From the NCBI RefSeq assembly GCF_040796495.1, contig NZ_JBFNQN010000003.1:248001-312000 (forward strand): a DNA stretch of 64,000 nucleotides. The letters are read 5' to 3'. The first letter of the stretch is position 1. Every line of letters starts with the position of its first letter. Shown here in pieces: positions 5,856-9,656 of this stretch. The DNA is from Kineococcus endophyticus. GTDB taxonomy: Bacteria > Actinomycetota > Actinomycetes > Actinomycetales > Kineococcaceae. The notes under the pieces were generated by a model that saw nothing but the letters and a program-made list of their open reading frames with translations, was not told the origin of the DNA and made no database searches. Both the position numbers and the translations under genes were made by a program.

Positions 5856-6659
5856 TCAGCGGATGTTCGGTGAACGTGTGGCGCGCTCGGAGGACAGGGC
5901 CGTGAGCACGGCGTCCGCGATGGCCCGCTGGCCCTTCGCGTTCGGGTGGTCCCCGTCGTCGGCCAGCAGCGGCGTGGGGTCCAGGCTCCCGTCGTCGCCG
6001 TGGAAGACCTGCCGCAGGCCCACGAACGTGACCCGGGCGCCCTTCGCGTCCACGGCGGCCTGCAGCTGGTCGTCGAAGGAGTCCGTCAGCTGGTCCTGCA
6101 CGGCCTGTTCGGCGGGCGTGTACTCCTGGTCGGCGACCGCCCCGTCGAGCCCCACGGCCCAGTAGTCCAGGACGACGACCCGCGCCCCGGTGGGCACGAT
6201 GCGGTCGACGGTGGCCGAGACCGTGGCGACGGCCTCGGCGGCGGCGCTGTCGACCTGCGCCTCGTCCGGCAGTGGGTCCGAGCCGTCGGCGAGGTCGGCC
6301 AGGTCGTTGGCGCCGGCCTCGAGCAGGACGACGTCGGTGGCGGAGAAGTCCGACAGGTCGTCCTCGACGGTGGCCGCGACGTCGTCGGACGTCGCGCCGT
6401 CCTCGGCGAGCTGCTCGAGCCCCACGCGCTGCCCGGGGGCCGCCAGGTCCGCCGCCACGAGGACGGGGAACGGCGAGCAGTCGCACTGGGCCCCCGTGGG
6501 GACGGAGTCGCCGAGGGAGACGACCCGCGTCGGGCGCAGGGGCCCCTCGGCACGCGCGCCGCCCGCGGCCGCGACCGTCTCCTCGGGCAGGGAGGCGGCC
6601 ATGCTGCCCAGCAGGAGCAGCACGACGGCGCCGAAGCGGAGAGGTCTCACGCTCCGCAC
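5856..6659 (-). CDS. Secreted SGNH/GDSL-family lipase or esterase
   Basis: 267-aa protein with a cleavable signal peptide (basic start, hydrophobic stretch FGAVVLLLLGSMAAS, then an Ala-rich region). SGNH blocks are visible: block I GDSVPTG with the nucleophile Ser, block III GANDLADL with the Asn, and the C-terminal Asp/His block DGDHPNAKG. The likely activity is hydrolysis of ester bonds outside the cell. The GTG at 6659 is chosen because AGGTGGTG lies about 8 nt upstream; a GTG at 6650 is also possible. Confidence 0.78.
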   Translation of the reverse strand: MRSVRPLRFGAVVLLLLGSMAASLPEETVAAAGGARAEGPLRPTRVVSLGDSVPTGAQCDCSPFPVLVAADLAAPGQRVGLEQLAEDGATSDDVAATVEDDLSDFSATDVVLLEAGANDLADLADGSDPLPDEAQVDSAAAEAVATVSATVDRIVPTGARVVVLDYWAVGLDGAVADQEYTPAEQAVQDQLTDSFDDQLQAAVDAKGARVTFVGLRQVFHGDDGSLDPTPLLADDGDHPNAKGQRAIADAVLTALSSERATRSPNIR

Positions 6660-6819
6660 TGTGGCATCACCACCTGTGATCGACCCGTGAATCGGGGGAG
6701 GGACGGACCGGACCCGGCACCCTCGATGGTCGGCCCACCGGCCCCGTCGCGCCAGCCCGGGACCCCCCGACGGGGGCCACGGCGGCCGGGCGGCCGGACC
6801 CGCCACCCACCCGCCCGTG

Positions 6820-6850
6820 TTGCGGTACCCGGTGCGGGGTGGGGTACGTT
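6820..6850 (+). promoter_or_regulatory. Possible promoter of the riboswitch operon
   Basis: TTGCGG (6820-6825) and TACGTT (6845-6850) are separated by 19 bp. Transcription would begin near 6857, right at the 5' edge of the predicted SAM riboswitch, which is the main reason for the call. The rest of the 6660-6850 gap shows no other feature. Confidence 0.35.
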
Positions 6851-6856
6851 CGCCGC

Positions 6857-6960
6857 AGCCATCCAGAGCGACCGAGAGACCTGGCTCGTCGACGTCGCAG
6901 CAACCATCCCGTCCCCGACGTGGGGCGGGACAGGTGCTTCCGCCAGGACCGATGGGAGAT
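6857..6960 (+). promoter_or_regulatory. S-box (SAM-I type) riboswitch controlling transporter/monooxygenase operon
   Basis: The leader follows the S-box order. P1 is CCATC (6859-6863) pairing with GATGG (6951-6955). Then come AGAG and a P2 stem GCGAC/GTCGC containing a GAGAGACCTGGCTCGTCGA kink-turn region, and the hallmark GCAACC. P3 follows as TCCCG(T)CCCC/GGGGCGGGA, and then GGTGCT-TCC. It closely parallels the B. subtilis yitJ S-box as remembered; P4 is very short. The 3' P1 strand abuts the GGGAG Shine-Dalgarno (6954-6958) for the GTG at 6964, so SAM binding would hide the ribosome site and shut translation off. No search was run. Confidence 0.75.
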
Positions 6961-6963
6961 CTC

Positions 6964-8295
6964 GTGAGCGCCCTGCAGTCCCCCGACGTCCGCACCCGCC
7001 CGGCGGCCCGCACGGCCCGCCGTCGTGCGGCCCTCGGCAGCTTCGTCGGCACCACGATCGAGTGGTACGACTACTACCTCTACGGGACGGCGGCGGCGAT
7101 CGTGCTCGGCCCGCTGTTCTTCCCCGACGTGGGCGGGGCCGTCGGTGTCGTCGCGGCGTTCGCCACCTACGCCGTCGGCTTCCTGGCCCGCCCGCTCGGC
7201 GGGGCCGTCGCCGGGCACGTCGGCGACCGGGTGGGCCGCAAGGCCGTCCTCGTCGCCTCCCTCCTCGTCATGGGCGTCTCCACGACCGCCGTCGGCCTGC
7301 TGCCGACGCACGCCCAGATCGGCGTCTGGGCTCCGGTCCTGCTCGTGCTGTGCCGTCTGCTGCAGGGGTTCTCGGCGGGCGGGGAGTGGGGCGGGGCCGT
7401 CCTGCTGGCCGTCGAGCACGCCCCCACGGGACGGCGCGGGTTGTTCGGTGCGATCCCGCAGACGGGCTCGGCCGCGGGCATGGTGCTGGCCAGCGGCGGG
7501 TTCTGGCTGACCCGCTCCCTCACCGACGACGACGCGTTCCTGGCCTGGGGGTGGCGGCTGCCGTTCCTGGCCAGCGCCGTCCTCGTCGTGGTCGGCCTGC
7601 TCATCCGGCTCAAGGTCACCGAGTCGCCCACCTTCGCCGCGGTCCGCGACGCCGAGGCGACCGCCCGCCGCCCGGTGGCGGAGGTCCTGCGCACCAACCG
7701 CCGCGGCGTCCTCGTCACGACCGGGATGCGGCTGGGGCAGAACGGGTCCTACGTCCTCTACACCGTCTTCGCGCTCAGCTACCTCGGCAGCGAGGTGCGT
7801 GCGGACGGGGCGGACGTGGGGTTGCTCGCGGTGCTCGTCGCGTCGGTGCTGAGCCTGGCGACGACCCCGTTCTGGGGGTGGTTGTCCGACCGCGTCGGCC
7901 GCCGCCCCGTCTACCTGGCCGGGTCGGTGCTGACGGCTGTGTTCTCCGTCCCCGCGTTCCTGCTGTTCGACACGGGGTCCACGGCCCTCGTCGTCGGGGC
8001 GGTCGTCGTCGCCGTCAACCTCGGCCACGACAGCCAGTACGGCGCCCAGGGCGCGTTCTTCGCCGAGCAGTTCGACGACCGGACGCGCTACAGCGGCGCG
8101 TCCCTGGGGTACTCGATCGGGGCCGTCCTGGGTGGGGGCCTGACCCCGCTCGTCGCAGCGTCGCTGCTGGCCGCCGGCGGGGGTTCGCCCTGGCTCGTCG
8201 CCGGCTACCTGACGTTCCTGGCGGTCCTCACGACCGTCGCCGCCGCCTGCACGCGCGAGACCGCGCACGAGCCCCTGGAGGGTCCCACCCCGTGA
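6964..8295 (+). CDS. MFS transporter, metabolite:H+ symporter (MHS) type
   Basis: 443-aa, 12-helix inner-membrane symporter. GTTIEWYDYYLYGTAAAIVL near the N-terminus, GHVGDRVGRKAVL (loop 2-3) and LQGFSAGGEWGGAVLL are hallmarks of the MHS group, which takes up small acids and zwitterions. The GTG at 6964 is preceded by GGGAG, which is partly inside the riboswitch P1; ATG at 6952 would start inside the aptamer. The stop overlaps the next gene by 4 bp. With a SAM-sensing leader and a DszA/DmoA-like monooxygenase partner, an organosulfur substrate is inferred. Confidence 0.85.
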   Translation: MSALQSPDVRTRPAARTARRRAALGSFVGTTIEWYDYYLYGTAAAIVLGPLFFPDVGGAVGVVAAFATYAVGFLARPLGGAVAGHVGDRVGRKAVLVASLLVMGVSTTAVGLLPTHAQIGVWAPVLLVLCRLLQGFSAGGEWGGAVLLAVEHAPTGRRGLFGAIPQTGSAAGMVLASGGFWLTRSLTDDDAFLAWGWRLPFLASAVLVVVGLLIRLKVTESPTFAAVRDAEATARRPVAEVLRTNRRGVLVTTGMRLGQNGSYVLYTVFALSYLGSEVRADGADVGLLAVLVASVLSLATTPFWGWLSDRVGRRPVYLAGSVLTAVFSVPAFLLFDTGSTALVVGAVVVAVNLGHDSQYGAQGAFFAEQFDDRTRYSGASLGYSIGAVLGGGLTPLVAASLLAAGGGSPWLVAGYLTFLAVLTTVAAACTRETAHEPLEGPTP

Positions 8296-9656
8296 AACCG
8301 CTGCGCCTCAACGCCTTCGCCATGGCCTGCGTCGGGCACCAGGCCGCCGGCCTGTGGAGCCGGCCGGAGGACCGCAGCGCCGACTACCGCACGCTGCGGC
8401 ACTGGACCGACCTCGCCCGGTTGCTCGAGCGCGGCGGCTTCGACGCGCTGTTCCTCGCCGACGTCCTCGGCACCTACGACGTGTACGGCGGGTCCCGCGA
8501 TGCCGCCGTCCGCGCCGCGGCGCAGGTCCCCGTGAACGACCCCCTCGCGGCGGTGTCGGCGATGGCGGCGGTCACCGAGAACCTCGGGTTCGGCCTCACC
8601 GTCACGACGACGTACGAGCAGCCGTACTCCCTCGCTCGCCGGCTCACGACGCTCGACCACCTCACCGAGGGCCGGATCGCCTGGAACGTCGTCACGGGGT
8701 ACCTCGACTCCGCCGCCCGCAACCTCGGGTTCACCGCCCAGGTCGCCCACGACGAGCGCTACGACGTCGCCGAGGAGTACCTCGAGGTCTGCTACAAGCT
8801 CTGGGAGGGGTCCTGGGAGGACGGCGCCGTCGTCCGCGACGCGGCCCGCGGCGTCTACGCGGACCCGGCGAAGGTGCACGACATCGCCCACCACGGCCGG
8901 TACTTCGACGTGCCCGGCGCGTTCCTGTGCGAACCCTCCCCGCAGCGCACGCCCGTCGTGTTCCAGGCCGGTTCCTCCCCGCGCGGGCAGGAGTTCGCGG
9001 CCCGCCACGCCGAGTGCGTCTTCGTCATCGCCCCGACCGCCGCGATCGCCCACCGCTCGGTGGACTCGCTGCGCCGCAAGGTGGAGGAGGCCGGGCGTGA
9101 CCCCCGGTCCGTCGCCGTGTACGCGGGCCTGACCCCCGTCGTGCGCAGTTCCGACGCCGAGGCCCACGCCCTGCTGGCCGACCTGCGCGAGCACGCCAGC
9201 CGGGAGGGCGCGCTCGCCCTGTTCGGCGGCTGGACCGGCGTCGACCTCGCCGGGGCCGCGCCGGGGGACCGGCTGCAGCACGTCACGACCGACGCGAACC
9301 GCTCGGCGCTGCGCAGCTTCACCGACGACCCCGACCGGGACTGGACCGTCGACGACCTCGCGCAGTTCGTCGCGGTGGGCGGACGCGGCCCGGTGCTCGC
9401 GGGCTCGCCGCAGACCGTCGCCGACGAGCTGGAGGCCTTCGCCGAGGAGGCCGACGTCGACGGGTTCAACCTCATGTACGCGACCATGCCCGGCACCTTC
9501 GCCGACGTCGTCGACCACCTCGTGCCCGAGCTCGCCCGTCGCGGCCGGACGGCGCCGCCTCCACCGCCCGGGACGACGCTGCGCGAACGCCTCGGCACCG
9601 GCGACGGCCCGCGCCTCGCGGCCGCCCACGCCGGAGCCGGGTACCGCCGCCCCTGA
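8292..9656 (+). CDS. FMN-dependent LLM-class monooxygenase, NtaA/SnaA/DszA/DmoA family
   Basis: 454-aa flavin monooxygenase using reduced FMN from a separate reductase. The fold is luciferase-like: the N-terminus KPLRLNAFAMACVGHQAAGL, then FDALFLADVLGTYDVYGG, LTTLDHLTEGRIAWNVVTGY and ERYDVAEEYLEVCYKLWEGS are typical of this family. Members oxidise nitrilotriacetate, dibenzothiophene sulfone (DszA) or dimethyl sulfide (DmoA), so the exact substrate cannot be read here. The GTG start overlaps the transporter stop. Together with the SAM riboswitch, a role in freeing sulfur from imported organosulfur compounds is the best inference. No flavin reductase gene is adjacent. Confidence 0.85.
   Translation: MKPLRLNAFAMACVGHQAAGLWSRPEDRSADYRTLRHWTDLARLLERGGFDALFLADVLGTYDVYGGSRDAAVRAAAQVPVNDPLAAVSAMAAVTENLGFGLTVTTTYEQPYSLARRLTTLDHLTEGRIAWNVVTGYLDSAARNLGFTAQVAHDERYDVAEEYLEVCYKLWEGSWEDGAVVRDAARGVYADPAKVHDIAHHGRYFDVPGAFLCEPSPQRTPVVFQAGSSPRGQEFAARHAECVFVIAPTAAIAHRSVDSLRRKVEEAGRDPRSVAVYAGLTPVVRSSDAEAHALLADLREHASREGALALFGGWTGVDLAGAAPGDRLQHVTTDANRSALRSFTDDPDRDWTVDDLAQFVAVGGRGPVLAGSPQTVADELEAFAEEADVDGFNLMYATMPGTFADVVDHLVPELARRGRTAPPPPPGTTLRERLGTGDGPRLAAAHAGAGYRRP

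Follow-up and report, generated by a model that had tools for sequence, protein, structure and literature searches.

A SAM riboswitch without P4 ahead of a probable organosulfur scavenging operon in Kineococcus endophyticus

Introduction

Why should a riboswitch for S-adenosylmethionine (SAM) stand directly before the genes of a transporter and a flavin-dependent monooxygenase? The question is raised by a stretch of 64,000 nucleotides from Kineococcus endophyticus (contig NZ_JBFNQN010000003.1, positions 248,001 to 312,000 of the forward strand; hereafter "the window"), in which a first-pass annotation made from the sequence noticed such a leader ahead of two overlapping genes. We consider it probable that positions 6845-9656 form one compact transcription unit that is repressed by SAM and serves to scavenge sulfur. 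This reading is built on homology and covariation of the aptamer, gene order, the regulon to which the site belongs, and the recurrence of the arrangement elsewhere. The original observation is real, and the interpretation placed on it is largely right.

From this evidence we infer the transcription start, the response to SAM, and the OFF logic. Transcription would start at or just before the aptamer. At high SAM, the ligand would bind the core made up of P1, P2, P3, and the pseudoknot and would keep P1 closed. Since the 3' strand of P1 holds the first two G residues of the Shine-Dalgarno sequence, we propose that ribosomes could not then load at the GTG start of the transporter gene, and the overlapping monooxygenase gene would likewise remain untranslated. 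When sulfur amino acids and SAM are low, P1 would open and the transporter would import an organosulfur compound. The monooxygenase, using reduced flavin mononucleotide (FMNH2) from a flavin reductase encoded elsewhere, would oxidize the compound and help to release usable sulfur.

The riboswitch aptamer

In a cmscan search of the whole window against all Rfam models, the sole riboswitch at gathering scores was a forward-strand match to RF00162 (SAM) at 6856-6958 (49.6 bits, E 2.2e-8, gathering score 44.4), with P1 to P3 paired. Every S-box core motif named by the first-pass annotation is present in the leader (Table 1), and the inner P2 helix is GAG/CTC. In SAM-I riboswitches the core bases are those that contact SAM, and the core columns are invariant in all 44 aligned aptamers. 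The same is true of the GA on either side of the internal loop of P2, where a kink-turn with tandem G.A may form. Two other classes were rejected. SAM-IV (RF00634), which the first-pass annotation had named as a second model to be run, has five matches in the genome (87-114 bits), none of them at the leader, and the SAM-I/IV variant (RF01725) has no match in the genome.

The first-pass annotation made no mention of the lack of a P4 helix. Only 13 nt separate P3 from P1 in the window aptamer, and the Rfam alignment skips P4. Across the Kineococcaceae, this joint is only 12-14 nt long in 90 of 90 aptamers (89 by script, G011:C4 by eye), so that P4 is missing from all of them. Order tallies, here and below, cover 81 of the 83 sites outside the family, among the matches listed; P4 is absent from 78 of these 81. 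Two of the remaining sites, L115:1501-1619 and L117:1501-1621 (family f17), have a P4-sized insert, and the third, L310, is ambiguous. On these sequences, P4-less and P4-sized forms coexist in the order, and we classify the window element as a P4-less variant of the SAM-I group and not as canonical SAM-I. The pseudoknot between L2 and J3/4 has five of five pairs in 88 of the 90 family aptamers by script and in one more by eye, and the last has three of five. Its partners covary over the 90 aptamers (CCTGG/CCAGG, CTTGG/CCAAG, CCCGG/CCGGG, and TCTGG/CCAGA).

Minimum-free-energy folding was rejected as proof of the structure, given that it does not recover the aptamer, and covariation was used as the basis instead. 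Our alignment, A1, contains 44 aptamers: 27 of 29 family representatives (one without a reference and one with a 3' extension were left out) and 17 of 21 order loci (L115, L117, L127, and L134 were left out). Since the loci with a P4-sized insert, L115 and L117, were omitted, both A1 and our covariance model R1 represent P4-less aptamers by design; the counts of P4 given above derive from separate tallies. Pairs were counted for P1, P2a, P2b, P3, and the pseudoknot. Standard pairs occupied 95.6% of cells, compared with 91.4% after shuffling, and two-sided changes occurred in 13 pairs, compared with 6.5; neither value was reached in any of 500 shuffles. When partners were slid by one to three columns, only 33-54% of cells paired. 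One of the five measures, the number of further pair types, was not above the shuffles (25 vs. 22.9, reached by 104 of 500). Pairs with two-sided changes are found in P2a, P3, and the pseudoknot (Table 1) and at one of three P2b positions, and the unpaired P3 cells fall in the outer, variable part of that helix. The covariance match, the covariation, and the occurrence of the same element in all 12 family genomes point to control by SAM, as was first proposed.

The SAM riboswitch regulon

Each of the 12 family genomes has RF00162 matches, from 4 to 13 apiece, for a total of 90, of which 87 are above the cut-off. Genes were called by a simple rule based on third-position G+C (GC3), and some of the calls are wrong (fused or overlong open reading frames, ORFs); no gene was called at seven of the 90 sites. 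The window's genome has ten sites, the tenth of which precedes the transporter/monooxygenase pair. Of the others, one lies before SsuB-SsuA-SsuC-like genes, of which only the SsuA-family member exceeds its cut-off, and one before MetZ, a MetE-C-like protein, and a methyltransferase. A third precedes an ATP-binding cassette (ABC) transporter, a DmoA-like enzyme that scores 586 bits against DmoA, and an enzyme resembling DszC and SfnB but under the cut-off of each. Two more precede, respectively, a MetY-like enzyme with a second NtaA/DmoA-like enzyme (262 bits, cut-off 280) and SfnG (594 bits, cut-off 383). Two sites belong to operons that cluster together, one encoding an Opp/Nik-type ABC transporter and an acetyltransferase, the other including an acyl-CoA-dehydrogenase-like enzyme. 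The remaining two precede a FAD/NAD(P)-binding protein accompanied by an ABC transporter and an operon of the MetE family, whose type was assigned from its relative in G003 and which is preceded by a MetF-like gene. With riboswitch sites standing also before SsuABC-like, SfnG, DmoA-like, DszC/SfnB-like, and Met enzymes, the window operon is best interpreted as one for organosulfur scavenging.

As expected of proteins made in sulfur famine, the regulon proteins are poor in cysteine and methionine, with a mean Cys+Met content of 1.02% in 18 regulon proteins, compared with 2.18% in 29 other genes of the window (p 1.6e-4). The regulon set consisted of the first two genes per site, including the window pair (1.13% for the transporter and 1.77% for the enzyme), after unclustered ORFs and six read-through families had been dropped. 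Transporters adjoining the enzyme (1.13, 0.93, 1.18, and 2.40%) are mostly poorer in these residues than 26 relatives found elsewhere (mean 2.21%, range 1.44-3.57).

Several further features of these genomes were observed. The second NtaA/DmoA-like enzyme (F15, 436 aa; L044:3949-5256, reverse strand) has no Cys or Met past the start in six of seven genomes, and the DszC/SfnB-like enzyme (F22; L041:511-1728, reverse strand) has none in five of six. The SAM-type matches in the window's genome comprise ten SAM-I and five SAM-IV elements, and in two places a SAM-I and a SAM-IV riboswitch are arranged back to back, one on each strand, with about 160 nt between them (Table 1). In another Kineococcus chromosome, six SAM-I riboswitches occur within 33 kb (G001:C1:1219913-1252891; L045-L047), possibly a sulfur-scavenging island.

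The transporter

The transporter had been called a member of the metabolite/H+ symporter (MHS) family. It does belong to the major facilitator superfamily (MFS; Table 1), and TIGR00883 (MHS) is its best NCBIfam family, but its score of 406.2 bits is under the cut-off of 443.45, and "MHS" is thus a best guess. No solved relative was found at E 1e-8. The 4-bp overlap with the monooxygenase gene is present as first described (GTGA, 8292-8295). The neighbors of the two genes, a GDSL lipase and a SpoIIE/GAF protein, are both on the opposite strand and look unrelated to the operon.

The direction of transport is assumed to be inward. It could be argued that volatile sulfides such as dimethyl sulfide (DMS) should need no importer, and efflux of a desulfurization product has been suggested in Rhodococcus (PMC8557817, in excerpt), so that the transporter might export the desulfurized carbon product instead. 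We regard this as unlikely, because the best families for the protein, though below cut-off, are metabolite/H+ symporters and uptake systems.

Promoter, ribosome site, and mode of control

A TANNNT box begins 10-16 nt upstream of the aptamer in 64 of the 90 family sites, compared with 0.14-0.15% of control windows, and lies at -16 to -6 in 60 of the 81 order sites (among the matches listed, with no separate control). In the window this box is TACGTT at 6845-6850, giving a distance of 122 bp from box to start codon. A scan of the leader region for the E. coli-type sigma-70 consensus gave no site.

The GTG at 6964 lies 8 nt past the GATGG of P1. The statement that the 3' strand of P1 merges with the GGGAG ribosome site holds as to sharing, the overlap being limited to GG (6954-6955). 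Among the 90 family sites, GATGG is followed by AGG, GAG, or AGT in 79, with a long ORF starting 7-16 nt further on in 38 and a short leader-type ORF in 41. SAM-I riboswitches in which P1 takes up the ribosome site in its 3' part have been described (PMC2258182 and PMC1262725, both in excerpt). Translational OFF control with almost no expression platform is plausible on this analysis. The small overlap could also mean that the switch acts mainly on transcription, by pausing or through Rho, for which untranslated GC-rich mRNA might become a target, and not by masking the Shine-Dalgarno sequence. The frequency of the arrangement just described, its precedent among SAM-I riboswitches, and the result of a scan that found no intrinsic terminator in 6650-7000 make such a mechanism distinctly unlikely.

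The monooxygenase

The first-pass designation "DszA/NtaA/DmoA-type" is right as to family (TIGR03860; Table 1), but the enzyme is nearer to DmoA and LadA than to DszA or NtaA. Its nearest solved relative is DmoA (6ak1), with 528 bits and 237 of 450 residues identical (53%), followed by LadA (465 bits, 223/451 identical), HcbA1 (329 bits), riboflavin lyase (296 bits), and DszA (254 bits, 160/429 identical). In the alignments, the WNVVTGYLDS stretch has a Tyr in the window enzyme and in DmoA where LadA has a His, which we take to be the catalytic His of LadA. The substrate, we infer, is most likely a small thioether, sulfone, or sulfonate. In Rhodococcus IGTS8, proteins annotated as nitrilotriacetate monooxygenase component A appear in a list of those probably involved in sulfur acquisition (PMC8557817, in excerpt), and two Gordonia genes with this annotation were expressed more highly on organic sulfur than on sulfate (PMC7661421, in excerpt).

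TIGR03860 is a mixed family, however, and with LadA and HcbA1 so close the enzyme might oxidize a non-sulfur substrate (alkane-like or N-alkyl), with SAM control serving one-carbon (C1) or methyl balance. This seems to us quite improbable, since DmoA is the nearest relative, the Tyr is as in DmoA and not as in LadA, and sulfur metabolism makes up much of the regulon.

Table 1. Features of the window and related sites in other loci. Positions without a locus prefix are those of the window.
Feature	Position	Strand	Evidence
SAM riboswitch aptamer, SAM-I type without P4	6856..6958	+	RF00162 49.6 bits; own model R1 95.5 bits (not independent, the window sequence being part of R1's building set)
P1 5' strand CCATC (partner 6951-6955)	6859..6863	+	paired in 44/44 aligned aptamers
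AGAG	6865..6868	+	sequence reading
P2a 5' strand GCGAC (partner GTCGC 6894-6898)	6868..6872	+	4/5 pairs with two-sided changes, 100% of cells paired
Pseudoknot 5' strand CCTGG, loop 2 (partner CCAGG 6943-6947)	6880..6884	+	3/5 pairs with two-sided changes, 99.1% of cells paired
P3 with GCAACC ... GGTGC core	6900..6937	+	5/10 pairs with two-sided changes, 87.8% of cells paired
GCAACC	6900..6905	+	sequence reading
GGTGCT	6933..6938	+	sequence reading
P1 3' strand GATGG, GG common with Shine-Dalgarno	6951..6955	+	sequence reading
Shine-Dalgarno GGGAG, 5 nt before GTG start	6954..6958	+	sequence reading
MFS transporter, 443 aa, metabolite/H+ symporter type, candidate importer	6964..8295	+	Pfam Sugar_tr 114 bits, MFS_1 99 bits
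NtaA/DmoA-family FMN-dependent monooxygenase, 454 aa	8292..9656	+	TIGR03860 526.1 bits, cut-off 279.7
Candidate promoter, TTGCGG 6820-6825 and TACGTT 6845-6850 (TANNNT type)	6820..6850	+	5 nt before aptamer match
Riboswitches with Shine-Dalgarno of short Cys-leader-like ORF	L039:4111-4203, L040:812-913	+	
Riboswitches with Shine-Dalgarno of short Cys-leader-like ORF	L041:6483-6596, L038:6653-6730, L044:6622-6696	-	
SAM-I/SAM-IV back-to-back sites (L038, L250, L249, L043)	C9:229348-229714, C7:30363-30715	opposite strands	

Distribution of the pair and of SAM control

An ortholog of the transporter occurs in six of the 11 Kineococcus genomes, including that of the window, the other five orthologs being 79-87% identical to it. 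All six loci have the riboswitch, then the transporter, then the enzyme. In the remaining five Kineococcus genomes the best transporter matches are 43-44% identical, and the one other genus of the family has none.

Near relatives of the enzyme were surveyed in the best 80 of 548 loci. The transporter adjoins the enzyme in two Kineococcus loci and 30 other actinobacterial loci, and R1 finds a riboswitch before the pair only in the two from Kineococcus. The pair is thus widespread, and the riboswitch is a Kineococcus trait in this sample. No other Rfam RNA was found around the riboswitch-free pairs in the 11 of 30 scanned. Seven enzyme loci had strong R1 matches, four of them from a single genus, Terribacillus; another, in L170 (Pseudonocardia endophytica), is on the other strand and far from the enzyme. 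A further six matches, all of them weak (E 0.09-0.83), were set aside.

In all four Terribacillus (Firmicutes) loci the enzyme lies about 2 kb downstream of a SAM riboswitch, and Rfam scores the riboswitches in L191 and L192 at 102-103 bits. In L191:3947-8575 the riboswitch is followed by SsuE, an MFS protein of another family, the NtaA/DmoA-family enzyme, and an acyl-CoA-dehydrogenase-like enzyme; this operon was perhaps assembled independently. Within the order, L285 and L309 have a riboswitch directly before NtaA/DmoA-family genes, which, though partial, score 369 and 355 bits against a cut-off of 280. Taken together with the other order sites, these loci indicate that SAM control of NtaA/DmoA-family enzymes probably arose more than once. 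Joined to the rest of the regulon, the riboswitches before such enzymes in Terribacillus and in two members of the order also favor the predicted role in organosulfur scavenging that was first suggested for the window operon.

Some order sites carry other genes. The riboswitch stands directly before a flavin-reductase-like first gene (below cut-off) in L265, L282, and L303, from other actinobacterial families, and these proteins are possible partners of such monooxygenases. In L313 the riboswitch precedes an SfnB-resembling protein and in L291 a protein like the ABC ATPases of nitrate/sulfonate type, both below cut-off.

Evidence weighing against the proposed function

A number of observations do not fit easily with a SAM-repressed scavenging operon. 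With regard to the RNA, P1 is nearly invariant, so that it gains no support from covariation, and its overlap with the Shine-Dalgarno sequence is limited to the GG already mentioned. Single-sequence folding of the leader misses the aptamer and gives a structure no more stable than those of shuffled sequences (z -0.42). When the leaders of the six orthologs are constrained to the aptamer, the resulting folds are 2.7-13.0 kcal/mol less favorable than the minimum, in a model without ligand or pseudoknot. In several of the minimum folds the P3 strand is paired to the start region, although this is perhaps only an effect of the common GTGAGCACC start. The aptamer not being the minimum fold, and the constrained fold being worse, the OFF logic is to be read as our proposal.

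With regard to function, LadA, which is almost as near to the enzyme as DmoA, is called an alkane monooxygenase. The operon has no flavin reductase, and three PF01613 genes are found elsewhere in the genome. The regulon names SsuB, SsuC, MetY, DszC, and SfnB are matches below curated cut-offs. The 30 other actinobacterial pairs lack a riboswitch by R1, a model built from P4-less sequences, and the upstream genes of two riboswitch-free pairs were typed as regulators of other kinds, TetR (L142) and LysR (L138). The window pair is no poorer in Cys+Met than the 30 riboswitch-free ortholog pairs (p 0.98 and 0.69).

It is highly improbable that the aptamer is a mere remnant or responds to a ligand other than SAM, for although it scores only 5 bits over the cut-off, its core is of the invariant type described above and the missing P4, common to the whole family, at least partly explains the low score.

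Leader peptides and a possible double gate

The short ORFs just behind the riboswitch in 41 of the 90 family sites have 24-51 codons and a motif such as RRRHVDLGRLSSAVC; the pattern was written after inspection of the peptides, and two of the 41 lack Cys. Leader-type ORFs occur in 12 of the 81 order sites, among the matches listed. Five riboswitches of this kind are listed in Table 1. Of five such peptides tested from the window's genome, four score 39.5, 31.2, 25.4, and 18.6 against NF042934 (cut-off 27), the NCBIfam model for putative actinobacterial leader peptides, and one has no match. Of the single-base codon differences within operon families, 262 of 421 are synonymous, compared with 26.5% expected, although the pairs overlap and are not independent. 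Leader ORFs with cysteine codons near the stop precede mycobacterial cys operons (PMC1262725, in excerpt), and a cysteine-responsive action of such leaders is cited, after Canestrari 2020, in PMC9094748 (in excerpt). Our literature search found no description of a SAM riboswitch acting on a cysteine leader peptide.

We put forward, at about even confidence, that the P4-less SAM riboswitches of Kineococcus and related families constitute a sulfur-famine regulon with two wirings. In the first, to which the window operon would belong, its riboswitch sitting on the transporter start itself and not on a leader peptide, the riboswitch would mask the ribosome site of the first gene. In the second, the masked ribosome site would be that of a short leader peptide for cysteine, and translation of this peptide would control the operon. 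Operons of this second kind, which would serve organosulfur uptake and include other NtaA/DmoA-family enzymes, would open only if SAM and cysteinyl-tRNA were both low. The leader-peptide part of the regulon is a more novel lead than the window operon.

Relation to known systems and significance

The window element shares with SAM-I riboswitches of the direct type, in which the ribosome site lies 3' of P1, the order P1-P2-P3, the AGAG, GCAACC, and GGTGC motifs, the GA of the P2 loop, and the L2-J3/4 pseudoknot (RF00162; PMC2258182, in excerpt). It differs from them in having no P4, a 5-bp pseudoknot, and an MFS and NtaA/DmoA-family pair as its target. SAM-IV riboswitches (RF00634) likewise lack the P4 of SAM-I and have the binding core in common (PMC6890682, in excerpt), but the window site has no RF00634 match, and there is little room for the P5 and PK-2 of SAM-IV, given that the gene starts so soon after P1. 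In an earlier comparative study whose genomes included Kineococcus radiotolerans, no conserved RNA structure was reported upstream of methionine operons (PMC1262725, in excerpt).

DmoA belongs to the same family as the window enzyme, which may or may not oxidize DMS; the window operon differs in having no reductase, an MFS partner, and SAM control. The Terribacillus operon in L191 has the same logic, with a related enzyme (59% identical) under a SAM riboswitch; it differs in its MFS family (RbtT/DalT/CsbX), its own FMN reductase, and its stronger riboswitch score (102.5 bits). The ssu, sfn, and msu sulfate-starvation genes of proteobacteria encode the same classes of enzymes for sulfonates and sulfones. 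Whereas those genes are run by protein regulators, the Kineococcus genes sit behind SAM-type riboswitches. As the first-pass annotation had supposed of the combination, no earlier description of this target for a P4-less SAM-I variant was found in a literature search whose reach excluded most subscription papers.

A switch of about 110 nt without P4 or expression platform is attractive for structural work and for use in GC-rich hosts. The leader-peptide arrangement, if it operates as we suggest, would place an amino-acid attenuator under the control of a metabolite riboswitch, giving a gate with two inputs made from RNA alone, and this could be tested directly. The scavenging function, if true, would help to assign roles to "nitrilotriacetate-type" monooxygenases, whose annotation is poor, those linked to SAM riboswitches being probably sulfur-acquiring, and would extend the role of SAM riboswitches from methionine synthesis to organosulfur scavenging. 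Together, the ten switches of this genome look like an emergency program for drawing sulfur from organic compounds.

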